From Virgibacillus doumboii (GTDB lineage Bacteria; Bacillota; Bacilli; Bacillales; Amphibacillaceae), in NCBI RefSeq assembly GCF_902806455.1, contig NZ_CADCWQ010000001.1, forward strand, positions 2,294,001 through 2,358,000: a DNA stretch of 64,000 nucleotides. Reading direction: 5' to 3'. Numbering within the stretch: position 1 is the first letter of the stretch; each line of letters begins with the position of its first letter. Positions 5,655 through 64,000 of the stretch are shown here, one piece after another. A model generated the notes under the pieces. That model saw only the letters and a program-made list of their open reading frames with translations. It was not told where the DNA came from and ran no database searches. The position numbers and the translations under genes were made by a program.

Positions 5655-7426
5655 TTTTTCACCTTCTTTGCCGCTTGAATAAAGGTTTGGTATAACTGGT
5701 CAAACTCCTGTGGGATAATCTTCTCATCCCTAATAATTCTAATCATATTCTCGACATCCTTGAGTTTTTCCGGTGAGCGAGCAGCCGTTGTCAGCATATT
5801 TTCATAGAGTACAGGGTCTTCACCCGAATCCTCTTCCCAATTGCCGAAGCCCGAATGTTGTCTCTCAGAATTTTCAAGGGCTGCCATTAAAAAATCATCT
5901 GCCAATAAAAATGCAACATATTTTAAAAACTTATGTGAGTTATCTATGATGGATCGAAAAATCGCTCCATCACGATCTTCTGGAATTCCGCTTGTGTTTA
6001 TTTTGATGACACGTTCGACCTGTTCATCATCTTTTTCTGCTGTTATGGTATAAAAACTACCGAGTTCAAGCATACTGAGCTGTTCAAAAATTGTAATTGA
6101 TTGAAGCGGCTGACTTTTCGTACTTAACAATGGACTGATAGTAAATTGAATATTATCATCAGGAATCGAGTCGAATGTGATCTTTACAGAATACTGATCT
6201 TCTTCAGCTGTTACATAAGCCTCTGATTCAACCCTGCATAATTGTTTAATCGCCTTTTGCAGCTGGTCCGTTATATTCGTATCCGCTTCATCCTCATCAG
6301 GAATTTCCTCGATTCTTTCAAACGGATTGTCATCTTCATCATCGCCAAATAAATCATCCAACAGATTTGTAATCCTGAATCCGCGTTTTTGATATTTCAG
6401 CTTCAGCAAAAATTCAACATTTCCGTTAAATGCATTTCTGGAACTATTTGCTGATCCAATATAAATATGGTGTTCATTATACTTCGACCTGGCATATAGC
6501 TTTGCATGGATATCCTGGAGTTGTGCTATTGCTTCCTCATCCGTTTCACCGCTAAGAGCTGTTTCCCCATCAATTACAGAATCCTTTAACGTATATACAA
6601 CAAAGCCGTTAAATACATCCGGTGAAAGCTTATGCAATTCTGTTTTTCGGGTTATCAGCACTTTTTCCGGATGTGATAGCGATTTTTCATTTAACTCACG
6701 GACAATAGATTCACTGATAAATGGTGATATAATGATTAACTTATGGTAACTTTCAAAAAGCCCTGTATCATCTTTCCCATAGTCACCAATTCCAAGCGGG
6801 CAAAAATCAAACGCTGGAATTTGCTTTTGAACAGGATTGAAGTGTACAAACTCAAGTTCATCCATCAGCGTTTTGATTTGTTTAGTTTTCAATTCATCTG
6901 TGGAACACTGGGTGAGAAAATGTAAAAAGTCCGCTAATGGGAGATTTTTACTAGTTTTTTCTGAATCCATCGTACCCTCAAGCGCAATTGCTATATCCCA
7001 GCTCCTGTCAAACGTCATATTGCGTGTCAAAACGAGCAGCCGATATAAAAGCTCGTCCTCCTCATTTCGGTACTTGATCAGCCAAATCTTCGGGTGAAAG
7101 GACATATCATTCTCCAGGGAAACTTCAAATACACTGTTTTCCATCATTGCAAAAATTGAATTAGCATCCCGGGGAACCTTAACCTGACCTGCTTCACAGA
7201 ATATCGCAAACTTATCAGCACTTCTTCTTAATCCTTCAAGTACGTATACCGGGTCATCCTTTAGTGTTCGATTCATTTCTTCAGACAGACTTAATGCCAA
7301 TGGAACCCCGACTAATGCTTCTAAATCCAATGAATACGTTGTCCCTACTGCAAACTCTACTTCATAACCTGCTGGTGGAGTAAGTAAATCAGAGTAATTA
7401 AGACGGTTATCTCCCGGTTTCAGCAT
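5651..7426 (-). CDS. phospholipase D-like (HKD) protein, probable nuclease
   Basis: A 591-residue protein with two HKD-type half-sites. The first is HPKIWLIKY followed by LTRNMTFDRSWDI (around residues 110-140). The second is HAKLY followed by HHIYIGSANSSRNAF (around 305-330). PLD-fold proteins with these motifs include nucleases such as BfiI and the DrmC family; no signal peptide or membrane segment is seen. The start is moved to the ATG at 7426 because TTGGAGGGG lies just upstream. The longer frame to 7519 overlaps the upstream gene by more than 100 bases. It overlaps DUF6361 by 20 bases and the helicase start by 4. It probably supplies DNA cleavage, though phospholipid cleavage cannot be excluded. 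Confidence 0.8.
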   Translation of the reverse strand: MLKPGDNRLNYSDLLTPPAGYEVEFAVGTTYSLDLEALVGVPLALSLSEEMNRTLKDDPVYVLEGLRRSADKFAIFCEAGQVKVPRDANSIFAMMENSVFEVSLENDMSFHPKIWLIKYRNEEDELLYRLLVLTRNMTFDRSWDIAIALEGTMDSEKTSKNLPLADFLHFLTQCSTDELKTKQIKTLMDELEFVHFNPVQKQIPAFDFCPLGIGDYGKDDTGLFESYHKLIIISPFISESIVRELNEKSLSHPEKVLITRKTELHKLSPDVFNGFVVYTLKDSVIDGETALSGETDEEAIAQLQDIHAKLYARSKYNEHHIYIGSANSSRNAFNGNVEFLLKLKYQKRGFRITNLLDDLFGDDEDDNPFERIEEIPDEDEADTNITDQLQKAIKQLCRVESEAYVTAEEDQYSVKITFDSIPDDNIQFTISPLLSTKSQPLQSITIFEQLSMLELGSFYTITAEKDDEQVERVIKINTSGIPEDRDGAIFRSIIDNSHKFLKYVAFLLADDFLMAALENSERQHSGFGNWEEDSGEDPVLYENMLTTAARSPEKLKDVENMIRIIRDEKIIPQEFDQLYQTFIQAAKKVKK

Positions 7427-53033: not shown

Positions 53034-53597
53034 TTAAGCAATATCATCCCAACCCATCATCTTCTTAAATTCAGGGTCGCGCAATTTCTTTCTTACCTGT
53101 CTCCCCCAGCTTTTCACTGCTTCAACAGTTGTTTTCTCTTTCAGGGTAATCTCTTTATAGGACATGTCCAGGATAATATAGTTATAAAGCCATTTCCATT
53201 GATTTTCGGTTAATTGGGATTTTAGGGTTTTCCAAAGGATGGGATCTGTCAGTGGGAGGTCGGTTTCACTAACAGGCAGTTCTGTCTTTTCCTGCTGGCA
53301 TCGGTGGTTACCATCAGTTATGTCAGTAAGTTGTTCCTGAAAAGCTTTCTTCTGTTTATTTTTATAGGATATTTCCTTTCGAAAGCTGTCAATCAGACGG
53401 TTTCTGATTGTGTAATTGAAATAGGTTGCCAGTGGTCCTTTATCTGGGTGGTAGGATTCGTTGGCTTTCCATAAGGCGATTAATCCTTCCTGAAAAAAAT
53501 AACCATGCGGGTCGCCGATATTCATCTTGTGCATCTGGTAATGAATCCGCCGCTTGTTTTGTTCAACTAATTCTTCAAATGATATTCTGTTGTCCAT
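53034..53597 (-). CDS. sigma-70 family RNA polymerase sigma factor
   Basis: A 187-residue sigma factor with region 2 (GYFFQEGLIALWKANESYHP, ATYFNYTIRNRLIDSFRK) and region 4 (WLYNYIILDMSYKEITLKEK, VEAVKSWGRQVRKKLR). It lacks regions 1 and 3, like small alternative or phage-type factors. No anti-sigma gene is adjacent. It sits at the left edge of the defence island, but a role there is not shown. Confidence 0.82.
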   Translation of the reverse strand: MDNRISFEELVEQNKRRIHYQMHKMNIGDPHGYFFQEGLIALWKANESYHPDKGPLATYFNYTIRNRLIDSFRKEISYKNKQKKAFQEQLTDITDGNHRCQQEKTELPVSETDLPLTDPILWKTLKSQLTENQWKWLYNYIILDMSYKEITLKEKTTVEAVKSWGRQVRKKLRDPEFKKMMGWDDIA

Positions 53598-53696
53598 GTT
53601 TCTGCCTCTTTTCGAGTCTGTGATGGTGACACTTGTGTGGATTCTAGGTGGGAAAGGAAGATAAAGAAGAATTGGAGTATCTTGGGAAAATAATAC

Positions 53697-53975
53697 TTAC
53701 TCTCCTTCAAACAGTTCATCATGGTAAGGCTCTAATTTCTTTTTAAGGTCTCCCATATCAATATCCAGAACGTGACAAAGCTTGTATACGGTTTCATATT
53801 GAGGTCGGTATTTGCCATTTTCCAGCTTGCCTAGATGCTTATCAGAACACTTTGCATCTGCCGCCACCTGTGCCTGTGTTTTATTTAATTCTTTTCTTCT
53901 GTTACGCAGATAGCTTCCCAACTGTTTGTGGTACTGAGACAATACTTCCAATATTATTCTTCCTTTTACGTCCAT
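53697..53975 (-). CDS. XRE family helix-turn-helix regulator
   Basis: A 92-residue DNA-binding protein: LGSYLRNRRKELNKTQAQVA, then AKCSDKHLGKLENGKYRP (helix-turn-helix) and LCHVLDIDMGDLKKKLEPY. Size and position, divergent from a restriction-modification cluster, fit a controller (C) protein or a general XRE repressor. A Shine-Dalgarno sequence before the ATG at 53975 is not evident, so the start is uncertain. Confidence 0.75.
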   Translation of the reverse strand: MDVKGRIILEVLSQYHKQLGSYLRNRRKELNKTQAQVAADAKCSDKHLGKLENGKYRPQYETVYKLCHVLDIDMGDLKKKLEPYHDELFEGE

Positions 53976-54136: not shown

Positions 54137-54164
54137 TTGATCTTTTTTCAAAATAATGTATAAT
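54137..54164 (+). promoter_or_regulatory. sigma-A-type promoter of the GATC methyltransferase gene
   Basis: TTGATC, 16 bases, TATAAT at 54159-54164, about 30 bases before the ATG at 54195. The -35 box itself contains a GATC site. Confidence 0.5.
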
Positions 54165-54194
54165 GATAAAAAGAAGGCGAAAGGATGTTCGCAA

Positions 54195-55454
54195 ATGAAC
54201 CAAAATAATACCATTCGTGTCATGGAACTATTTGCTGGTGTTGGAGGATTTAGATTGGGATTGGAAAGAGCAAACAAGAACCTTTTCGATGTCTCCTGGG
54301 CAAACCAATGGGAACCTGCCAGAAAAGCTCAAGACGCTTTTGAATGTTATACAAGAAATTTTTCTTATGGTGATCATAGCAATCAAGACATAGCAGAAAT
54401 TCCAGATGTAACATTTCAAAGTATTAATCCGGACTTAGTAGTGGGCGGCTTTCCCTGCCAGGATTATTCCGTTGCACGCTCACTTTCCGGGGAAAAAGGA
54501 ATTCAGGGTAAAAAGGGCGTCCTATTCTGGCAGATAGAAAGAGTATTAGATAACACACATCCCAAATTCGTTTTGCTCGAAAATGTTGATAGATTATTGA
54601 AATCACCTTCAAAACAAAGAGGAAGAGATTTTGCAGTTATGCTTGGTACCTTACGCAATTTAAATTACACCGTTGAATGGCGCGTAATCAACGCAGCAGA
54701 ATATGGTTTTGCACAAAGGCGAAGAAGAGTGTTTATATTCGCATATAAAGAAGGAATATCTTTTGATGAAGAACAGAAAGGAAAGTCCCTTAAAGATGTC
54801 GTTTTTAAAGATGGCTTTTTTGCAAAGGAATTCCCTGTTAATAAGGAAGCATACAAAGATAGGGAATCTACAACAACTATACAAAAAGACAGAGTCGAAA
54901 TCTCTGATAACTTTGAGTTTATCTTCCATAATTCAGGAGTTATGAGGAATGGGAATATATACACCGCCCATACTCAACCAATCGAAAAGAATCCGACCCC
55001 ATTAAAAGACATATTAATTGATGAAGAATTTATAGAAGAGAAGTTTATTCTTTCTAAGGAAATCGAAGAAAAATTTGAATATTTAAGAGGCGCTAAAAAG
55101 GTGGAACGTACTTCAGCTACTGGCCATAAGTATTATTTTTCGGAGGGTGGAATGTCTCCTACTGACAACTTAGACAAGCCTGGTAGAACAATGCTAACTA
55201 GTGAGGGCACGACAAACCGAAGTACTCATATAGTTGAGGTTAATGGCAGAAAGAGATTTCTTACTCCTGTAGAATGTGAAAGGCTGAATGGCTTTGATGA
55301 TAATTGGACAGCAGGAATGACAGATCGCATGAGGTACTTCTGCATGGGAAATGCACTTGTTGTAAGTTTAATTGAAAAGATGGGTAAAAGAATTGAGGAA
55401 ATAGATTCAGTAAAACCATCTCACGAAGAAGTCCAGATTGAATTTACTGTTTAA
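54195..55454 (+). CDS. DNA (cytosine-5-)-methyltransferase, M.Sau3AI-like (GATC)
   Basis: A 419-residue m5C methyltransferase: motif I MELFAGVGGFRLGLE, motif IV GGFPCQDYSVA (catalytic Cys near residue 88), motif VI LLENVDRLL, motif VIII QRRRRVFIF and motif X GNALVVSL. The sequence around WANQWEPARKAQ and GIQGKKGVLFWQIERV closely resembles M.Sau3AI, implying methylation of the C in GATC. Its partner is the Sau3AI-type nuclease directly downstream. The start is moved to ATG 54195 behind AAAGGATG. Confidence 0.9.
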   Translation: MNQNNTIRVMELFAGVGGFRLGLERANKNLFDVSWANQWEPARKAQDAFECYTRNFSYGDHSNQDIAEIPDVTFQSINPDLVVGGFPCQDYSVARSLSGEKGIQGKKGVLFWQIERVLDNTHPKFVLLENVDRLLKSPSKQRGRDFAVMLGTLRNLNYTVEWRVINAAEYGFAQRRRRVFIFAYKEGISFDEEQKGKSLKDVVFKDGFFAKEFPVNKEAYKDRESTTTIQKDRVEISDNFEFIFHNSGVMRNGNIYTAHTQPIEKNPTPLKDILIDEEFIEEKFILSKEIEEKFEYLRGAKKVERTSATGHKYYFSEGGMSPTDNLDKPGRTMLTSEGTTNRSTHIVEVNGRKRFLTPVECERLNGFDDNWTAGMTDRMRYFCMGNALVVSLIEKMGKRIEEIDSVKPSHEEVQIEFTV

Positions 55455-55480
55455 GCTGATACGTATAGTGTCAGCTTTTT
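55453..55480 (+). terminator. hairpin terminator between methyltransferase and nuclease genes
   Basis: AAGCTGATAC / GTGTCAGCTT stem (one G-T pair) followed by TTT. It overlaps the methyltransferase stop and could lower expression of the downstream nuclease relative to the methylase. Confidence 0.6.
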
Positions 55481-55522
55481 ATGTTACAATTAATTAAACG
55501 ACCACATGAAAGGGTTTTCCAT

Positions 55523-56911
55523 ATGGATTACAAAACTGAAGAAGAGCTTTTAGATAAAGCAAAGGAAGCTGAAGGCTTAACATTCGAGGAAATTGATACT
55601 ACTGGTCGAATCGAGAACGGAAAAGCGAAAGGCCAACTTGGACAAATTATCGAGGAGAGCTTTTTTGGCTATGAAATCAACTCAAAGAATGAAGCTGATT
55701 TTTCCGATTTGGGAATCGAATTAAAAGTCACCCCTATTAAAAAAAATAAAAATGGTACCTTATCGGCAAAAGAGAGATTAGTATTAAATATCATAAACTA
55801 CCAAAATGAAGTACATACTGCATTTAAAACATCCAGCTTTTGGTTAAAAAACAGAGAAATTCTGATTATCTTTTATGAATGGGTTGCAAATCTATCAAGA
55901 GCCGACTACAAGGTTATAAAATCCTATCTGCATAAGTACCCGGAAGAGGATTTGGAAATTATTAAGCAGGACTGGCAAACTATCGTGGAAAAGGTTAGGG
56001 CCGGCTTAGCGCACGAACTTTCTGAAGCAGATACTAATTATCTGGCTGCGTGCACTAAAGGGGCAAGTAAGAGCTCATTAAGGTCGCAACCGTATAGTGA
56101 TATTCAAGCTATGCAAAGAGCATATTCATTGAAACAAAGCTATATGACCGCACTTGTTAGAAAAGAAATCAAACAAGAGGACCTTATCCGCTTTGCTTCA
56201 CCTGGTGAATTAAAAGAAAAGTCACTATTTCAACTCCTTCTGGATAGATTTAATCCCTATAAAGGAATGACCGTTAATCAGATAGGTGCTGAAGCAGGAA
56301 TAGAAATAAATACTAAATCAAAAAATTTCCTTCAACAATTTGTTAGTGAACTATTAGGAATTCGCGGTACAAAATTGGATCAGATTGAAGAGTTTACAAA
56401 AGCCAATATCCAGCTTAAGACTGTGAGGCTTGAACCTAATGGTGTTCCTCAAGAACATATGTCATTCCGGAATATAGATTTTCATGAGTGGGCCAAAGAA
56501 GGATGGGAAGAAAGCTGGCTTAAAAATCATTTTGAAGAAACAAAATTCTTGTTTATAGTGTTTCATTATAAAGAAAGTAAAAAAGAAAATCCGAACAGGA
56601 AATTGTATTTTCATGGTATTACTCTTTGGAATATGTCCAATAGTGAAATAGAAGGAACCCTAAAAGATTTTTGGCATCATGTTCAATCGCTAATCAAAAA
56701 AGGCATTAAATTGGAACCTGTCAAACAAAAAAATAGAACTATTGTAAAAAACAACCTTCCGAAACCCGGTTATAATGGGGTCTGTCATATAAGGCCAAAA
56801 GCAAGAGATGGGAAAGATAAAGTAAAGTTACCTAGTGGACAGGGTATTACGAAACAAGCCTTTTGGTTGGATAATATCTATGTTGCGGAAATTATTAACA
56901 AGACAAAGTAG
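55523..56911 (+). CDS. Sau3AI/MutH-family type II restriction endonuclease (GATC)
   Basis: A 462-residue nuclease. The N-terminal catalytic domain shows KGQLGQIIEE, then ADFSDLGIELKVTPIKK, with the Asp and Glu-x-Lys residues of the MutH/Sau3AI active site. The C-terminal half is the second, catalytically silent Sau3AI-like domain that binds DNA (FNPYKGMTVNQIG, FLFIVFHYKES). Length is close to Sau3AI (about 490). Expected specificity is GATC. Start ATG 55523 follows AAAGGG. It lies behind its cognate methyltransferase. Confidence 0.9.
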   Translation: MDYKTEEELLDKAKEAEGLTFEEIDTTGRIENGKAKGQLGQIIEESFFGYEINSKNEADFSDLGIELKVTPIKKNKNGTLSAKERLVLNIINYQNEVHTAFKTSSFWLKNREILIIFYEWVANLSRADYKVIKSYLHKYPEEDLEIIKQDWQTIVEKVRAGLAHELSEADTNYLAACTKGASKSSLRSQPYSDIQAMQRAYSLKQSYMTALVRKEIKQEDLIRFASPGELKEKSLFQLLLDRFNPYKGMTVNQIGAEAGIEINTKSKNFLQQFVSELLGIRGTKLDQIEEFTKANIQLKTVRLEPNGVPQEHMSFRNIDFHEWAKEGWEESWLKNHFEETKFLFIVFHYKESKKENPNRKLYFHGITLWNMSNSEIEGTLKDFWHHVQSLIKKGIKLEPVKQKNRTIVKNNLPKPGYNGVCHIRPKARDGKDKVKLPSGQGITKQAFWLDNIYVAEIINKTK

Positions 56912-56923
56912 GGATGGATTTTA

Positions 56924-57190
56924 GTGAATATAGAAAGTTTATTTAATAAAGATATTAGGATTAAAGTATTAAGAGCTTACCTATATAAATCTATGAGCCA
57001 TAGACAAATTCAAAGGGAGATTTTACATTTAGACGCACCCGCCCGTGGAGGTGGATTCGTTGCTATGCAAATACTACATTTCTACGGGATTGACGGTAAG
57101 AAAAAAGGTATTCTATCTAAATCTAGTATTGAAAGTGAATATAAGACGGCCAGCGATGAATATAGGAGGGCGTTGGATTTAATACTGTAA
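56924..57190 (+). CDS. 88-residue protein of unknown function in the restriction cluster
   Basis: A small protein with GTG start 56924, 12 bases after the nuclease stop and behind AGGGATGG, hence cotranscribed. The N-terminal half looks like a helix-turn-helix (VLRAYLYKSMSHRQIQREIL). Then come LDAPARGGGFVAMQILHFYG and IDGKKKGIL, a Gly-rich loop and short strand. No family was recognised. It could be a DNA-binding accessory of the GATC system or of the methyltransferase that follows. Confidence 0.7.
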   Translation: MNIESLFNKDIRIKVLRAYLYKSMSHRQIQREILHLDAPARGGGFVAMQILHFYGIDGKKKGILSKSSIESEYKTASDEYRRALDLIL

Positions 57191-57214
57191 AGTATTTAAT
57201 AGTAACCCCTTAAT

Positions 57215-57226
57215 TTAATAGTTTAA
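57215..57226. promoter_or_regulatory. candidate operator TTAATAGTTTAA before the second methyltransferase
   Basis: Reverse complement of 54089-54100, preceded by ACCCCTTAATTT. TATAAT boxes follow near 57275-57290. Confidence 0.4.
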
Positions 57227-57303
57227 TATGGAGTTTATCCTTTGCTTTTCGAAGCCATTGGATTACAATAAGGTATAATGTGTATAATTCTGGGGGAATA
57301 TAC

Positions 57304-58500
57304 GTGAATGAAAACAAATATACTGCCGTGGAGCTCTTCTCAGGAGCAGGTGGAGTAACAGAAGCCATTAAAAATAAATTTGATTTAAAATGTGCTGTAG
57401 AGTACGATCCTATTATTGCAAAAACATATGAACTTAATCATGGTAAAGATCATTTAATTGTAGATAACATCAATAATCTTAATCCACATAATGTATTAGC
57501 TTTTACAAAATTGAGCCCAAATGAATTGGATTTACTAGTTGTCACTGCTCCTTGTCAGGGATTCTCTAGGCATACACGAAAAAAAGCTATTAAAAATAAG
57601 GACAAAAGAAATAAATTAATAATGCAAACAATTAGATATTCAAATGTATTTAAACCATCTTATATTTTCTTTGAAAATGTAAGTAACATTCTCAACTTCA
57701 CCCAATTTTCCCGATTCATAAGAATTCTGACAAATCTAAAGGCAAATGGCTATAAGCGATATGCAAAATGGCCATCTTATCATATTCGTTTTGAAAGAAT
57801 AAATGCCTCAGATTATAACGTACCACAAAACAGAAACAGGCTAATTCTCATCGCAAAAAGAATCGATTCATTTCCAAATACTGATGCAGTTATTTCTTAT
57901 GAAAAGGGCGGTATTCCTTCTGTTAAGCAAGCCCACGACATATGGCCCGATAAACAGAAGGCACCCAAATTAGGGCAATACCTTAAACAATATAATCTAT
58001 CAAAAATTAAACCTGGTGAAACCTGTCAAAAAGATTCATTGCATAAAGCTCGCAAACTTTCCAATCTAAATAAAAAAAGAATTAGTTGTACCCCACAAAA
58101 TGGTGGATCAAGAGCAGATTGGCCAGAAAAACTTCAATTGGATTGCCATAAAAAGAAAGGAGTTAGTTATGGTGATGTGTACGGAAGAATGAACTATAAC
58201 GATTATGCTCCTACAATCACCACTGGCTGTACATGTTATTCAAAAGGTAGATTCGGTCACCCAATATACAACAGAGCTATTTCATTAAGGGAAGCAGCAC
58301 TTATTCAAACTTTTCCTGAATCATACAAATTCACTGGTAATATAAACGGAGATGAAAATACAGGATCAATTGATAAACTATCAACCCAAATCGGAAATGC
58401 AGTTCCTGTTAATTTGGCTGAAACTTTCATTGCTAAAATCGCCCGGGAACTTATAAAATCAAAAACTAAGGAAAGCGAATCTAATCTTGTACTTTCTTGA
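57304..58500 (+). CDS. DNA cytosine-5 methyltransferase (DrmMII-like candidate)
   Basis: A 398-residue m5C methyltransferase: motif I VELFSGAGGVTEAI, motif IV VTAPCQGFSRH (catalytic Cys about residue 84), motif VI FFENVSNIL, motif VIII NVPQNRNRLILIAKR and motif X QIGNAVPVNLAE. It is clearly different from the GATC enzyme upstream. Its gene converges on drmB with a shared terminator, so it is the natural candidate for the host-marking methylase of class 2 DISARM. Recognition sequence unknown. GTG start 57304 is set by GGGGGAA. Confidence 0.85.
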   Translation: MNENKYTAVELFSGAGGVTEAIKNKFDLKCAVEYDPIIAKTYELNHGKDHLIVDNINNLNPHNVLAFTKLSPNELDLLVVTAPCQGFSRHTRKKAIKNKDKRNKLIMQTIRYSNVFKPSYIFFENVSNILNFTQFSRFIRILTNLKANGYKRYAKWPSYHIRFERINASDYNVPQNRNRLILIAKRIDSFPNTDAVISYEKGGIPSVKQAHDIWPDKQKAPKLGQYLKQYNLSKIKPGETCQKDSLHKARKLSNLNKKRISCTPQNGGSRADWPEKLQLDCHKKKGVSYGDVYGRMNYNDYAPTITTGCTCYSKGRFGHPIYNRAISLREAALIQTFPESYKFTGNINGDENTGSIDKLSTQIGNAVPVNLAETFIAKIARELIKSKTKESESNLVLS

Positions 58501-58509
58501 ACAATTACT

Positions 58510-58538
58510 GACCAGCCCATACACTTATAGGGCTGGTC
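58510..58538. terminator. bidirectional terminator between methyltransferase 2 and drmB
   Basis: GACCAGCCC / GGGCTGGTC perfect 9-bp stem, 11-base loop, between convergent genes. Confidence 0.75.
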
Positions 58539-58550
58539 TAAAATTAACTC

Positions 58551-60368
58551 TTAATTATTGAAAAAACCAATATCTTTATCAGGGGTCCCTATAACTAAAG
58601 CACGGTCTAGTAACCTATTAAATTCTTCACAACTCGTCTCTGGTAGTAATGAGCAAGCATGACAAGCAGATAAGTTCAAAGCACCCATTCCTTGTCCCTC
58701 ACTTTCGATACATAAGGGATCGGATGAGCACCATGATGCTCGATTTACAGCATTTGCAAAAATTCTATTGAAAAATTCTGAGTCTCCCTGCCTGACAAGT
58801 CCCCCTAGAGTGCCTTCAGAATCTCCACTGGCTGTGTAAATTAATATTCCAGACATCTCTGACTGTTCATCACGTTCATTACAATAAAGCCTCTCTCTTA
58901 ATGATGACGTAGCATATCCGCATTCAAAACTTAATTCCCTGATAAGCAAATGGGATAACGTATGAAGAAGTATATATTTAGCTGAAATGGTTCTATATTC
59001 CATCCCTCTTTTATCGGTATAACTTTCGTACCTCTTATTTATTATTTCAGCTCTTTTTTGCACCTCAGGATTTCTCTGCCAATCATTTAATACATTTTCA
59101 TTAAATGAAATAAAAATACCTTCTCCCCTAACTTCGATAGCAGGTAACCAATCAGTCGTATAGCTTTTAACAGGGATACCTCTACCTTCATTTTCGCTTT
59201 CATCCTCAACACCATAATCATCCCTACCAAGGGGGTTAACTCTACTGAATGCTATAAGTGCTCGTAATTCTCTTAGACTATTAACCAGTACCATGTTTTC
59301 AATACCTGGTATATTATAATTTTCAACTTCTTGATCACTTATCACAAAATCCTTTGAACTTATTTCCTCCTTATCAAAATTTCCTAATAACGCCATATAT
59401 TCCTGGTAACGATACTCAACCTCATCAATGGAACCATTTGCAGTGTTATTGATATTTTCTATAGCTCGTTTAACATCATTTATATTTTTTCCGAGTTGGT
59501 CTGCTATTGATTCGTATAATGGACTTGGATCAGGAAATAAATTTTTTTGAGTTTGAAAAAGATGCCAAGCATTTGTTTGTTGAATATCAGCAATCAATTG
59601 ATCAGAATACGGTGGTATTAATATAGACGATACTATTTTTGGGAAATATACATTTGATGCGGTTCTTTGTAGTGTTTTTGGGGTACATTCACACTCATTT
59701 TCATCATATTCATCAAGCCATGGTTTAAATCCTGTACAACTTTTTTCATCATGAGCGTTATCATTAAATGCCCCACCTAAATTGCGTTTTTCACCACATC
59801 CTTTGCATTCTACCACAATACCTCCCAGCCCTGAACTACTTCCACCGACCCATAGTCTTAAATCAACATTTTTGCAACCATTTCCTTTATGCACCCATTT
59901 TTCCCATGGAAAATCATCTGTATGACCTTTTTCGCAAACTACTATAAAACGACTGGGAACCAATTTTAAGTTACATATGTTACAGGTCGGAAACTTAGAA
60001 TCTTTACCCTTAGATTGTTTATAATTTTTTCTCCACTCATCTATGTGTTTTAATCGTCCACATCTTGAATTTTTACAATATAACCATTTAGGAAAACGAT
60101 AAAAAGGAATACCATTTCTATACTCGCTTTTGGAAGGAACCTTTTTAAAATGAGTTATGTTAAACTTATTTAATCTTTTTTGCAATCTTGTATCATATAA
60201 ATATGGAATACCTGCAGTACCCCATTTATCAATACCTGCTGGCATTACGGATTCATTAGGAAAATCAACTATGCTACCTACACCAAATGGCCCAATAAAT
60301 TGATTGCTTCTAAAAACATCATACCTCAATTCTGGATCGTATTGTTTTTTTTGTTGATTCTTTGACAT
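58551..60368 (-). CDS. drmB: DISARM protein DrmB (DUF1998-containing)
   Basis: A 605-residue protein. The N-terminus FRSNQFIGPFGVGSIVDFPN is typical of DrmB. Four Cys pairs (CKNSRCGRL, CNICNL, CEKGHTDDF, CKGCGEKR) suggest zinc binding. The C-terminal DUF1998 domain has HTLSHLLIRELSFECGY, GILIYTASGDSEGTLGGLV and NLSACHACSLLPETSCEEF. DrmB works with the helicase DrmA to bind and block unmarked phage DNA. It starts 12 bases after the drmA stop behind an AGGGGGGG site and is the last gene of the minus-strand operon. Confidence 0.88.
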   Translation of the reverse strand: MSKNQQKKQYDPELRYDVFRSNQFIGPFGVGSIVDFPNESVMPAGIDKWGTAGIPYLYDTRLQKRLNKFNITHFKKVPSKSEYRNGIPFYRFPKWLYCKNSRCGRLKHIDEWRKNYKQSKGKDSKFPTCNICNLKLVPSRFIVVCEKGHTDDFPWEKWVHKGNGCKNVDLRLWVGGSSSGLGGIVVECKGCGEKRNLGGAFNDNAHDEKSCTGFKPWLDEYDENECECTPKTLQRTASNVYFPKIVSSILIPPYSDQLIADIQQTNAWHLFQTQKNLFPDPSPLYESIADQLGKNINDVKRAIENINNTANGSIDEVEYRYQEYMALLGNFDKEEISSKDFVISDQEVENYNIPGIENMVLVNSLRELRALIAFSRVNPLGRDDYGVEDESENEGRGIPVKSYTTDWLPAIEVRGEGIFISFNENVLNDWQRNPEVQKRAEIINKRYESYTDKRGMEYRTISAKYILLHTLSHLLIRELSFECGYATSSLRERLYCNERDEQSEMSGILIYTASGDSEGTLGGLVRQGDSEFFNRIFANAVNRASWCSSDPLCIESEGQGMGALNLSACHACSLLPETSCEEFNRLLDRALVIGTPDKDIGFFNN

Positions 60369-60380
60369 ACAATGCCCCCC

Positions 60381-63300
60381 CTAATCTTTTACTCTTACAA
60401 CACATTCTTCACTTACATTCCTCATTGACTGTAACGTTGGGAAAACATCTTTCCCACGAAACTGCTCATGATACGGATATAGTAATCTTCTTAATTTAGA
60501 ATTTCTATATGTCAGGTTTTCATCAATAGATGCAACATCATGCCAGTTTTCTATTACCTTCTGTAATTCTTCTGCTGCAGCCTCATGTTCCTCAGGCATA
60601 ACATCTTCTACTCTTTCCAGTATGACATCCTTAATTCGGTCTAAATCCGTCAAATCTTTTCTGAACTTAGACGCCTCATTATCTTTCTTCAATAAAGTCA
60701 AATGCCGAACCAATGAAATTAATACAGCGTGTAACGCTCTTTTTCTTGCCGGTGGCGAAAAAGGAGTAATGCTGGTAGGTTCTACATATTTATAAAATGC
60801 TTGATGATAAGAAGAAAAAGTTTCATAATGGGATCTATCCCTTGGTCTGGCACCATCATATAATGTAAATATTATTCCTGGATATTTCCGTCCTACTCTA
60901 CTTGTAGCCTGGATATACTCTGAGGTTGTTTTCGGCTGACTCATGACTGTCATCAAGCCAAACCTATCAATATCTACCCCCACAGAAATCATATTCGTAG
61001 CTAAGAGAATTGGTATTACATTCTTGTCTGGATATTCTACACTTAGGTTCTCCAGAACCTCTGTTATTTCTCCTGACTTCCTTCTACTTGTTAGTTCTGC
61101 AGCCTCTCCATACATTCTAATTTTTTTCGATCTCCTCCGAGCAATTCTTGACACTTGTTCTTTGATATCTACTTGGGTTAGTGTTAGTGATTTCCCAAGT
61201 TCTCTGATTGAGTTAAAATAACTGACCAAGGTCCAATATTTATCCTTTACCTCATCTTTATAATCCAGCTCGCTTATATAATGAAGTAATCCGGAGAATA
61301 ATCTAACTTGTGTAGTAGTTTGAGTTTTTCCCGTAGACATCAATCCGACATAGAGTCTTCCAGGTCCATTGTCATCCTCTCTTGAAAAAAATGAATCCTC
61401 TGCATCGATTCCCGGTGGAGGGAATTGTGATACATCTCTATTATAAAGTGCTTTTACCTGTTCACCAGCTCGTCTAATTGTTGCTGTAGAGGCAATAATC
61501 TTTGGTTTTATATTCTTAATTGTACATAATGCATCTATAGCAGTTTCATATAAACCAACCATAGTACCCAAAGGGCCAGAAATTAAATGTAATTCATCTT
61601 GAATTATTAATTCTGGTGGACGATTATTGTTTCCTTGATTTAAAGCGAAGATATTTGACACTTTTCCGTTCCAAGGCATCATGGCAAACTTATCTACAGT
61701 TCCAAATAACAAGGTTGGAGGGCTCTGATATATATCCTCATCCACAACTTTTATCGGTAATTCTTCGTTAAAGGGACATTTATCATGAGTACAATGTATG
61801 ATAAATTTATTAGGCTTTGATTTTGGTTTATAACCCCATTTTCCTTCAGTCTTTTCTTTATAAAGCCGAGTCCCGCACCATGGACAGCTTAATACTTGAA
61901 AAGGATTGTTTGTTTCTTGGTTTGAAACCAATTTGTCACAAGCATTTTTAGCATCTATAAAACTGTTTGGTGTAGAAGAGGAACCAATCCATAATCCTAT
62001 AGATACTTGTTCGTCACCCAATTCAGGTAATTCTTTTCTAATTTCTTCGCACGCACAAATCAAAGTACTTGCTCTTTGAAATTGTTGTGCAGTTAAAAGT
62101 CGTAAAGTATATCTCATTAATATCGCGGTACCATTACTCTCCTCGGAGTATCTTAGTCTTCTGTAAAAAATTATAAAAGCAGACACACCTAAATATGCTT
62201 CAGTCTTACCTCCTCCTGTTGGAAACCATATTAAATCAACTATATCCCTGTCTCGATTATCTACCGACGATAAACCACTAATATTCAAGAGAAAAAAAGC
62301 CAATTGAAAAGGTCTCCAGCTTGCATCTGAAATTTTCATTGTTTTGTAATCAAATACATTTATAGCTTCATCTGGCCACTTTTTATTTTCTTGAATAATC
62401 GTATGAGCACGTTGCATCAACATAGCCCTATTAGCTAATTTAAATGTTTTTAATATTACATCATCATTTTTAAGAAGGTTAATTCCATTCATAATACGAT
62501 CTGAAGCGTCACGGCATGCCTTTATATGTCTAGAGGCCGTTTTTTGCATAGGTGGCGATAAAGTATCTAGTTTATTACTTAAATCATCAATCCACTTTTT
62601 GTATATTAATGTAAATTCAGTAAGATTATTTATTATTTCTTTATCGCTTAACGGGGATAAATCCGACAAATACTTCATTGACAATGTCTCTTTGGAATTT
62701 TCTCCTAGTTCCTCAATATCAAACTTCATTGGAGGAACTTCCTCATATGGAATGATTTTGGTGCTTAAGCTTATGACCTTATTATTTGAGACTTTCCAAT
62801 ACGGAGAACAACCATGGCCAACAGCATAAGATTTTTTATTTCTATACAATAAAGCATTTGATTGTTCTTCGAAATCATTTGTCAGATGGTTGTACGTATC
62901 GTATTCAATAATTTTCTCTTTATCATCTAATGGGCTTACCTTCAACCCTACCTGGAAATATGATTTATCATCTTTATTTTGACCATTTTCCTCATGATTT
63001 GTGTTTACTAGAGAAATGGTAAATAATGTGCTCTTTGATTCCGGCCTTGGTCTCCTTATACAAACCAATTTCAGCCCATCATCTACTAATTCTACATATT
63101 GTTTTGTATCACCGTGCGGTATAATTTTATTTATTTTTTCTTCATCTAAAGGCCTTCTACACCAGCCTGTAATTTGTAAATTGTATAACTTATAGACAGC
63201 ATTCCTAAAGGGGGTATTCTCCGAAAGATATAGTAAGGAATCCCTATCTTCTCTATTAAACTCTTTAGTTATTTTTAATTTATTTCTTTCTTGTTTTAAA

Positions 63301-63785
63301 TGTCTGTTAAAAACTGTGGAATTTACAATCTCATCGGGGAGAATTTCATCAAGGTATACCTCACAATCAGTTTTTTTTATTTTCGAATATTTCGCAGCAT
63401 CAATCTTCACATTAATTGATGGATTAAATCCGGAAACATAAAAACTTAAACCCAATGAAGAAGGGAAATATTGAGTCGAGGTTTTTACGGGTGAGTCATC
63501 GAAAGTTTCATCATCAATTTTAGTGGAACGATTAGTATCATCTTTTGTTGCTGAAATGTATTTTTCATCAAACATTTCAACATCCGCGGTTTGATTTTCA
63601 TCTTCAGTATCCACCATCAACATTTCCTGTGGGTATAATATTCCCATTGAATACCTTTGGCTCGGTTTCTCACTTATTATTTCATGTTCAGCATTTTGCA
63701 ATGCCCCCTCAGAGCCCGGACCAACCATTTCTTTAATAACACACTCTAAATAGTCTTTTCTAAATTGAGAATATAAATTTGTCAT
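60381..63785 (-). CDS. drmA: DISARM helicase DrmA
   Basis: A 1134-residue SF2 helicase. Walker A is FPTGGGKTEAYLG (about residue 523), motif II IQDELHLISGPLG (about 730), and then ASTATIRRAGEQ. Motif V is NMISVGVDIDRFG (about 935) and motif VI QATSRVGRKYPG (about 960). The long N-terminal region (1-480) has no simple motif. Architecture and pairing with drmB identify it as DrmA, the DNA-translocating core of DISARM. Its ATG overlaps the stop of the upstream helicase-like gene (ATGA). Confidence 0.9.
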   Translation of the reverse strand: MTNLYSQFRKDYLECVIKEMVGPGSEGALQNAEHEIISEKPSQRYSMGILYPQEMLMVDTEDENQTADVEMFDEKYISATKDDTNRSTKIDDETFDDSPVKTSTQYFPSSLGLSFYVSGFNPSINVKIDAAKYSKIKKTDCEVYLDEILPDEIVNSTVFNRHLKQERNKLKITKEFNREDRDSLLYLSENTPFRNAVYKLYNLQITGWCRRPLDEEKINKIIPHGDTKQYVELVDDGLKLVCIRRPRPESKSTLFTISLVNTNHEENGQNKDDKSYFQVGLKVSPLDDKEKIIEYDTYNHLTNDFEEQSNALLYRNKKSYAVGHGCSPYWKVSNNKVISLSTKIIPYEEVPPMKFDIEELGENSKETLSMKYLSDLSPLSDKEIINNLTEFTLIYKKWIDDLSNKLDTLSPPMQKTASRHIKACRDASDRIMNGINLLKNDDVILKTFKLANRAMLMQRAHTIIQENKKWPDEAINVFDYKTMKISDASWRPFQLAFFLLNISGLSSVDNRDRDIVDLIWFPTGGGKTEAYLGVSAFIIFYRRLRYSEESNGTAILMRYTLRLLTAQQFQRASTLICACEEIRKELPELGDEQVSIGLWIGSSSTPNSFIDAKNACDKLVSNQETNNPFQVLSCPWCGTRLYKEKTEGKWGYKPKSKPNKFIIHCTHDKCPFNEELPIKVVDEDIYQSPPTLLFGTVDKFAMMPWNGKVSNIFALNQGNNNRPPELIIQDELHLISGPLGTMVGLYETAIDALCTIKNIKPKIIASTATIRRAGEQVKALYNRDVSQFPPPGIDAEDSFFSREDDNGPGRLYVGLMSTGKTQTTTQVRLFSGLLHYISELDYKDEVKDKYWTLVSYFNSIRELGKSLTLTQVDIKEQVSRIARRRSKKIRMYGEAAELTSRRKSGEITEVLENLSVEYPDKNVIPILLATNMISVGVDIDRFGLMTVMSQPKTTSEYIQATSRVGRKYPGIIFTLYDGARPRDRSHYETFSSYHQAFYKYVEPTSITPFSPPARKRALHAVLISLVRHLTLLKKDNEASKFRKDLTDLDRIKDVILERVEDVMPEEHEAAAEELQKVIENWHDVASIDENLTYRNSKLRRLLYPYHEQFRGKDVFPTLQSMRNVSEECVVRVKD

Positions 63786-64000
63786 CTTTGCAATGCCCCC
63801 CTAATTAAGTACTCTTTAGATTTTTCTTTTATTTTCTTATTTAAGGAATGATCCAAGAATATAAATAAAAGCTTTTTTGCTCTTGTCATTGCAACATAGT
63901 TAACCGTATTAGTCCACTTTCCATCTATAGAATCTATTCCAAAATATATTATAATTTGGCTCTCAAGGCCTTTGAAGGATTGTGCGGTCGTGTAATAAAT
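63782..64000 (-). CDS. C-terminal end of a UvrD-like helicase in the drmE position (5' cut by window)
   Basis: The last 72 residues of a protein whose start is beyond the window. TAQSFKGLESQIIIYFG and NYVAMTRAKKLLFIF are motifs V/VI of UvrD/Rep-type SF1 helicases (SxKGLE, YVAxTRA). The stop overlaps the drmA start, so it is the upstream gene of the same operon. Class 2 DISARM carries drmE here. Whether this protein belongs to that family or is a different accessory helicase needs the missing 5' sequence. Confidence 0.75.
   Translation of the reverse strand: MYYTTAQSFKGLESQIIIYFGIDSIDGKWTNTVNYVAMTRAKKLLFIFLDHSLNKKIKEKSKEYLIRGALQR

Follow-up and report, generated by a model that had tools for sequence, protein, structure and literature searches.

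A drmC-less DISARM locus of Virgibacillus doumboii with a NERD-UvrD nuclease-helicase gene and a convergent cytosine methylase grouping with GHKL-linked enzymes

A 64,000-nucleotide stretch of the Virgibacillus doumboii genome (RefSeq assembly GCF_902806455.1, contig NZ_CADCWQ010000001.1, positions 2,294,001 to 2,358,000; hereafter the window) and the sequence following its right-hand end carry a minus-strand operon with the order vsr, drmE-family gene, NERD-UvrD nuclease-helicase gene, drmA and drmB, which converges on M2, a 5-methylcytosine (m5C) methylase gene of the plus strand. With a probability of roughly 0.7, the minus-strand genes and M2 together constitute a well-bounded variant of DISARM (defence island system associated with restriction-modification) that lacks drmC, carries NERD-UvrD and has a swapped methylase. 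The first DISARM paper is said to be that of Ofir in 2018. The locus is of value for its swapped methylase and for a NERD-UvrD gene that recurs across a DISARM clade devoid of drmC. A broader proposal, which we advance tentatively and with the odds somewhat against it, is that in a large drmC-less branch of DISARM the NERD-UvrD protein, encountered in at least seven phyla, degrades DNA in the role assumed for DrmC, and that DISARM and other systems draw on a common stock of exchangeable self-marking methylases, the one here being of a GHKL-linked lineage.

Conservation of the block in Virgibacillus siamensis

DrmA has relatives in 13 of the 159 family genomes, a count that includes the genome of the window. 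In V. siamensis (G051, taken to be this species; G and L numbers are our handles for genomes and fetched loci) the six genes from vsr to M2 are present in identical order and orientation, and M2 is likewise convergent with drmB. Identities to the window are 77% for vsr, 69% for drmE, 82% for NERD-UvrD, 86% for drmA, 88% for drmB and 85% for M2, and the DNA of the block is 83% identical over 10.9 kb; homology spans positions 57235 (45 bp 5' of M2) to 68097 and then 68290-68670, ending in vsr. The ratio of nonsynonymous to synonymous substitution rates (dN/dS) between the two species is well below 1 for every gene, namely 0.13 for M2, 0.09 for drmB, 0.10 for drmA, 0.15 for NERD-UvrD, 0.23 for drmE and 0.11 for vsr. 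Neither the Sau3AI-type restriction-modification (R-M) pair that adjoins M2 in the window nor the 88-residue gene next to it (p88) was found in 20 kb of V. siamensis around the block. Since the block is kept there with M2 and without the pair, M2 is placed with DISARM, and the pair and p88 outside the unit; the sequence comparison thus indicates that M2 is kept together with the DISARM block.

The initial annotation of the window, made from the letters alone, had described a DISARM with a cytosine methylase on the opposing strand, an arrangement now found conserved as a block in V. siamensis, and had gone on to call the locus a hybrid, in which GATC restriction by the Sau3AI-type pair would add a second layer to DISARM and M2. 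The pair does directly adjoin DISARM in the window, and, because the ATPase activity of DrmAB falls on m5C DNA (PMC9142583, in part), host DNA densely marked with GATm5C might in principle be less subject to DrmAB activity. Such a two-layer unit is nevertheless highly improbable: V. siamensis keeps the block without the pair, no homologue of the endonuclease was detected in any of 122 fetched DISARM-related loci (E 1e-3), and the gene table around a related pair on the Priestia megaterium plasmid NZ_CP092389.1, which is incomplete, shows neither drmA nor drmB within 6 kb. As a part of DISARM itself the GATC pair was rejected on the first two of these results. The locus owes its hybrid character not to a GATC layer but to the grouping of M2 with GHKL-linked methylases, considered below.

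The V. siamensis block is flanked by two near-identical 3.2-kb insertion elements in inverted orientation (L027:310-3574 and L027:16165-19430), which encode a DUF6431 protein, an rve/Mu-type transposase and a TniB-like AAA protein and are present in five full copies in that genome. A composite transposon carrying the block was considered and rejected: a 6-bp target duplication brackets the right-hand copy by itself, and none is common to the two outer ends, leaving joint transposition unsupported. Synteny of the left flank within the genus is limited to scattered main matches of 64-68% identity.

Gene content of the locus

The coordinates of the features are collected in Table 1. Frames and family scans confirm the gene list first drawn up for the window, with drmB, drmA and a UvrD-like gene on the minus strand and M1, the Sau3AI-like nuclease, the 88-residue gene and M2 on the plus strand. 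The window itself holds the 3' end of the NERD-UvrD gene (63782..64000), whose frame enters at 64000. The frame of M1 opens at 54156, the earlier-noted start at 54195 being a later ATG of the same frame.

Table 1. Features of the DISARM locus and of the adjoining R-M pair; positions are those of the window, continued beyond 64000 where marked as extended
Feature	Position	Strand	Family match or remark
M1, m5C methylase of the Sau3AI-type R-M pair	54156..55454	+	PF00145, 234 bits
Sau3AI-family endonuclease	55481..56911	+	NF040973, 561 bits (cut-off 300)
p88, orphan protein of 88 residues, probably accessory to the R-M side	56924..57190	+	without family match
M2, m5C methylase, taken as the methylase of the DISARM block	57280..58500	+	
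Hairpin between the stop codons of the convergent genes M2 and drmB	58510..58538		two-sided, terminator-like, weak T-tracts
drmB (MZB/DUF1998 protein)	58551..60368	-	NF038324, 515 bits (cut-off 240)
drmA (superfamily 2 (SF2) helicase, short DrmAS form)	60381..63785	-	NF038325, 1027 bits (cut-off 950)
NERD-UvrD nuclease-helicase gene, 578 residues	63782-65518 (extended; L002:11783-13519)	-	NERD and superfamily 1 (SF1, UvrD-like) helicase domains
drmE-family gene	65521-68034 (extended; L003:1522-4035)	-	NF038316 DrmE_fam, 378 bits (cut-off 80)
vsr	68229-68702 (extended; L003:4230-4703)	-	TIGR00632, 132 bits

DrmA matches Serratia DrmA (7s9v_A, E 8e-165), in an alignment that ends before the methylation-sensing valine of the Serratia protein, and residues 20-598 of DrmB align with Serratia DrmB (7s9v_B). 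The drmE-family protein scores 41 bits against the stricter DISARM_DrmE model NF038323 (cut-off 250) and passes the broad DrmE_fam model only. DrmD and DrmMI, which belong to class 1 DISARM, had no matches among the scanned frames. The hairpin between M2 and drmB, earlier described as a bidirectional terminator, is real (-18.6 kcal/mol, z -5.0) and has a matching hairpin in V. siamensis; its role as a terminator is no more than plausible, the T-tracts being weak and the site not being among those called by a consensus terminator scan. The whole genome holds three m5C methylase genes, M1, M2 and a distant one on another contig, which lies in a 497-residue frame (G000:C2:516685-518034).

Absence of drmC and the DrmA clade

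No drmC had been seen between the visible drm genes and M2, and this observation stands: the sequence past 64000 adds the drmE-family gene and vsr, and DrmC was found neither between drmB and M2 nor among the frames of at least 190 residues in the approximately 13 kb beyond vsr. A collinear drmMII and drmC just outside the window were sought among frames of that size, and neither drmC nor a further m5C methylase was found upstream. The frames beyond vsr are peptidase-like, weakly TPR-like (L003:7770-8819, with TPR matches below the cut-off), ParA-like, DegV and others. Genome-wide, PLDc_2 (phospholipase D, PLD) matches above the cut-off are confined to one 485-residue frame with two matches, which by its size and layout looks like a cardiolipin synthase. 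A weak PLD-like match under the Pfam cut-off was also noted at about 6389-6523 of the window, on the minus strand, in a 641-residue frame.

The question of the missing drmC as REARRANGEMENT was put to the 122 gathered loci, which comprise all 12 matches from the family other than the window's own, 80 loci from named genomes (the best of 559 confirmed relatives there), and 30 further loci. These last derive from 397 genomes, 35 of them with a match, after omission of the own genome and two already included and of three weak matches, one genome contributing two loci; L113 and L160 are one record, counted twice among the 122. Adjacent drmA and drmB are present in 106 of the 122 loci. With iterated models, and with NERD counted by an N-terminal NERD model, NERD/UvrD was recognised in 32 of the 122 loci and DrmC by hidden Markov model in 13 (two being the same record), both never occurring together. 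In a DrmA tree of 106 rows (105 loci and the window; FastTree, local support), a clade of 83 rows (support 95) contains 32 NERD rows and no row with detected DrmC, the DrmC rows lying in a 12-row clade (nine) and a 3-row clade (three). Because none of the 83 clade rows has a detected drmC, its absence is an ordinary trait of this DrmA clade and not a rearrangement. The term "rearranged", applied to the locus in the initial annotation, is accordingly dropped; the position of the methylase, too, varies among DISARM loci.

The NERD-UvrD nuclease-helicase

The NERD gene lies on the strand of drmA in all 32 loci in which it occurs, within 100 bp 5' of drmA in 14, just 3' of drmB in 8, and elsewhere in 10; five of these 10 overlap the start of the longest drmA frame, by 111-427 bp, and so probably also adjoin drmA. 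The phylum is named for 29 of these loci and is one of Bacillota, Actinomycetota, Chloroflexota, Pseudomonadota, Bacteroidota, Acidobacteriota and Myxococcota. Among 33 aligned NERD-UvrD proteins, the one of the window included, the NERD catalytic residues E66 and K68 are invariant and D53 is conserved in 97%; the Walker A lysine K239 is invariant, and the Walker residues as a group show little or no variation. The PADLOC models PDLC03813 and PDLC01087 match the window protein, and proteins combining NERD and UvrD are as such already known in defence. As a part of DISARM, NERD-UvrD is not named in those portions of the main texts of the open-licence literature that were examined: according to the portion of PMC12458937 seen, DrmC typically follows the DUF1998 gene in DISARM, and NERD is mentioned there for TALON only, while that of PMC10952713 lists NERD under Mokosh I and Nhi-like systems and not under DISARM. 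NERD-UvrD is taken as the probable DNA-degrading part of this DISARM.

An alternative is that Vsr and NERD-UvrD are passengers, that the working unit consists of drmA-drmB, possibly with drmE, and M2, and that host nucleases degrade the DNA. The patchy distribution of NERD and Vsr among DISARM loci would agree with this, as would a report by which DISARM can dispense with DrmC and frequently lacks it, and DrmAB may recruit other nucleases (PMC9142583, in part). We consider it unlikely, without being far-fetched, since NERD sits tight against drmA or drmB in 22 of the 32 loci and its catalytic residues are conserved across the seven named phyla.

Placement and lineage of M2

An m5C methylase of at least 280 residues within 6 kb of drmAB is present in 56 of the 106 loci. 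The nearest one lies downstream on the same strand in 24, upstream on the same strand in 19, upstream on the opposite strand in 8 and, as here, downstream on the opposite strand in 5. The best PADLOC model for M2 is MTase_II (247 bits), the best DrmMII model giving 124 bits, and by these scores M2 does not appear to be a typical DrmMII. The possibility that M2 is always linked to the GATC system was not borne out: no homologue of the endonuclease was found in the stretches fetched around M2 relatives in six other genomes. M2 as the partner of the Sau3AI-type endonuclease was rejected as well: against the methylase of the Priestia Sau3AI locus, M1 is 60% identical and M2 25% over 189 residues.

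The nearest relatives of M2, among the best 120 of 2797, are that of V. siamensis, then a 76% protein on a 1.9-kb contig, then proteins of 49-60%, many from Paenibacillus and Bacillus. In all five genomes that carry relatives of 54–58% with genome context (all further matches at E below 1e-70), the M2-like gene lies beside a GHKL-ATPase gene, of 1027-1050 residues in four and split in one, and a partner gene of 567-664 residues, split in one. The GHKL protein of one of them (G428) has PDB matches at both ends, to MORC3 in its N-terminal part (E 9e-4) and to histidine kinases in its C-terminal part (E 1e-6); its partner protein had no credible structure match in the PDB and reads, from its sequence, as possibly receiver-like. 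The remaining GHKL and partner proteins were named by blastp to the G428 pair, and a PADLOC scan of four proteins of these cassettes gave one weak match. Weaker M2 relatives (about 34%) occur without DISARM genes in L133 and L134 and beside a DrmA gene in L187, and a 47% M2-like fragment lies at the edge of L036, beside a DrmA gene. No M2 relative above 38% was found on viral contigs among the best 80 of 159, and on plasmids M2 relatives reach 36-37% at best among the matches listed.

An m5C tree of 84 rows was built from 54 methylases of DISARM loci, the five GHKL-linked enzymes, M1, M2 and 23 database proteins (one in three of P0008-P0074). In it, the M2 proteins of the window and of V. siamensis and the five GHKL-linked enzymes fall in a set of 27 rows (support 99) that contains no other DISARM methylase. 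The best reading of this placement is that M2 is a swapped methylase, grouping with GHKL-linked enzymes. As the DISARM methylases L065, L076 and L093 branch just outside the set, transfer between DISARM and GHKL cassettes could have run in either direction. In G962 (L189, 4236-15813) a GHKL/M2-type cassette abuts drmA-drmB-drmC, with the M2-like gene convergent to drmC and several frames that look split; such an arrangement is a possible route of methylase capture. GHKL-like proteins akin to the one encoded beside the M2 relatives were also seen in two other DISARM loci (L047:2209-4302 and L116:21535-22896).

These data bear on a second alternative, in which M2 is the leftover of a GHKL-ATPase cassette and DISARM has no dedicated methylase here. 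The association of M2 relatives with GHKL and partner genes in five of five genomes would fit it, and so would the separation of M2 from the 53 other DISARM-locus methylases, the DrmMII scores below those of other m5C models, and the abutting cassette of G962. We nonetheless judge it decidedly unlikely: blastp at E 1e-5 detected no GHKL or partner homologue in L027 (V. siamensis), in the window or in the 18 kb that follow it, yet the dN/dS of M2 is low, and M2 lies inside a block whose borders are common to both genomes.

Proposed mechanism and its weighing

The Vsr protein of the operon aligns with the Vsr endonuclease 1cw0, which we take to be the E. coli enzyme. Vsr has an established role in the repair of T:G mismatches, and its pairing with M2 would be in keeping with that role. 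In the model proposed, M2 would methylate a sequence in the host genome, thereby marking self; DrmAB would load on unmethylated DNA that is single-stranded or bears 5' overhangs, and then translocate; NERD-UvrD would unwind and cut the DrmAB-bound DNA, a role assumed elsewhere for DrmC; and Vsr would repair the T:G mismatches that arise from deamination of the 5-methylcytosines made by M2. It has been reported that Serratia DrmAB binds single-stranded and 5'-overhang DNA and that its ATPase activity is lower on m5C DNA (PMC9142583, in part). PMC9252829 (in part) makes DrmC a requirement of type II.

Several observations weigh against NERD-UvrD as a stand-in for DrmC and against the unit as drawn. 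The mutual exclusion of NERD and DrmC (Fisher p 0.009, uncorrected for relatedness) tracks lineages, so that the p value overstates it. The absence of DrmC is weaker in the 6 of the 32 NERD loci with less than 3 kb on one side of drmAB, and a Pfam scan of neighbours in the NERD loci (unassigned, same strand, 180-420 residues, within 3.5 kb) revealed one PLD domain among 24. One NERD row, L167, whose branch is very long, falls outside the 83-row clade. Within that clade the NERD/UvrD label is found in 32 of the 83 rows and requires at least 17 changes on the DrmA tree, which makes it an exchangeable accessory and not an obligatory part, and a different SF1 helicase is often present beside drmA in clade loci that have neither NERD nor DrmC. 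A replacement for DrmC may even be needless, given its reported dispensability (PMC9142583, in part). The linkage of M2 to the DISARM block is based on two genomes of one genus. A vsr-like gene occurs in 22 of the 106 loci, in 16 of 56 with an m5C methylase and 6 of 50 without; this association is suggestive only and not significant (p 0.054).

For the destruction of phage DNA by DISARM, the recurrent NERD-UvrD gene beside drmA or drmB, with its conserved catalytic residues, offers one concrete candidate. With a methylase lineage common to DISARM and cassettes of the GHKL type, it becomes open to experiment whether the identity of the self-marking cytosine motif matters to DISARM.

The Sau3AI-type pair and other neighbouring genes

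The pair consists of a family endonuclease, whose residues 13-468 align with Sau3AI (4pxg), and an m5C methylase, and is thus of the Sau3AI type; recognition of GATC would be expected from its family. On the Priestia plasmid, a 59% relative of the endonuclease adjoins the M1-like methylase mentioned above, and an SNF2-related gene and other restriction genes lie nearby. Together with p88 the pair looks like a separate, ordinary neighbouring system. In a large protein set p88 has one relative besides itself, and matches occur in 4 of the 159 family genomes, its own included. One of these, in G059, is a 93-residue gene after a type III Res gene (L033:14876-15157), in a locus that also holds a DISARM; two HNH proteins contain segments related to p88 (29-33%). 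As a part of DISARM, p88 was rejected, not being seen in the V. siamensis block or genome. On the minus strand, at 53034-53975 of the window, a small protein with sigma-70 region 2 and a helix-turn-helix protein of the Cro/C1 type adjoin the R-M pair and are possibly regulators. Beyond the right-hand end of the window degV is duplicated (L003:5134-5931 and L003:10979-11786), a partial copy being 86-91% identical over three pieces; some 5.85 kb, which hold the peptidase, TPR-like and ParA-like genes, separate it from the intact gene.

Comparison with known systems

The R-M pair resembles known Sau3AI restriction-modification in its endonuclease and methylase, arranged as in another Sau3AI-family locus, and differs by the extra 88-residue gene; otherwise it is ordinary. 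Pairs of HK-like/GHKL and Response_reg_2 proteins have been linked to C5 methylases (PMC8011034, in part), and the nearest M2 relatives with genome context lie in what are apparently such cassettes, a likeness drawn from context and not from PF19191 or PF19192; the present locus differs in having no GHKL or partner gene near M2. With TALON, which joins a YprA-like helicase and a NERD nuclease (PMC12458937, in part), the locus shares a YprA-type helicase accompanied by a NERD-containing protein. It differs from what that part describes by a DISARM-type DrmA, a separate drmB and a NERD domain fused to an SF1 helicase, and whereas TALON combines an ARMADA-like YprA and a NERD nuclease with TPR-CSD and TATA-binding protein (TBP) genes, neither a cold-shock nor a TBP match was found among the scanned neighbours. 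The closest likeness in gene content is to class 2 DISARM (type II in PADLOC; DrmA, DrmB, DrmC, DrmE and DrmMII), with which the locus shares a DrmA and a DrmB that pass the curated cut-offs, as well as a linked m5C methylase and a protein of the DrmE family; it departs from that class in lacking DrmC, in a DrmE that passes the DrmE_fam model and not the DISARM_DrmE equivalog, in the presence of NERD-UvrD and Vsr, and in a methylase that is convergent and of another lineage.

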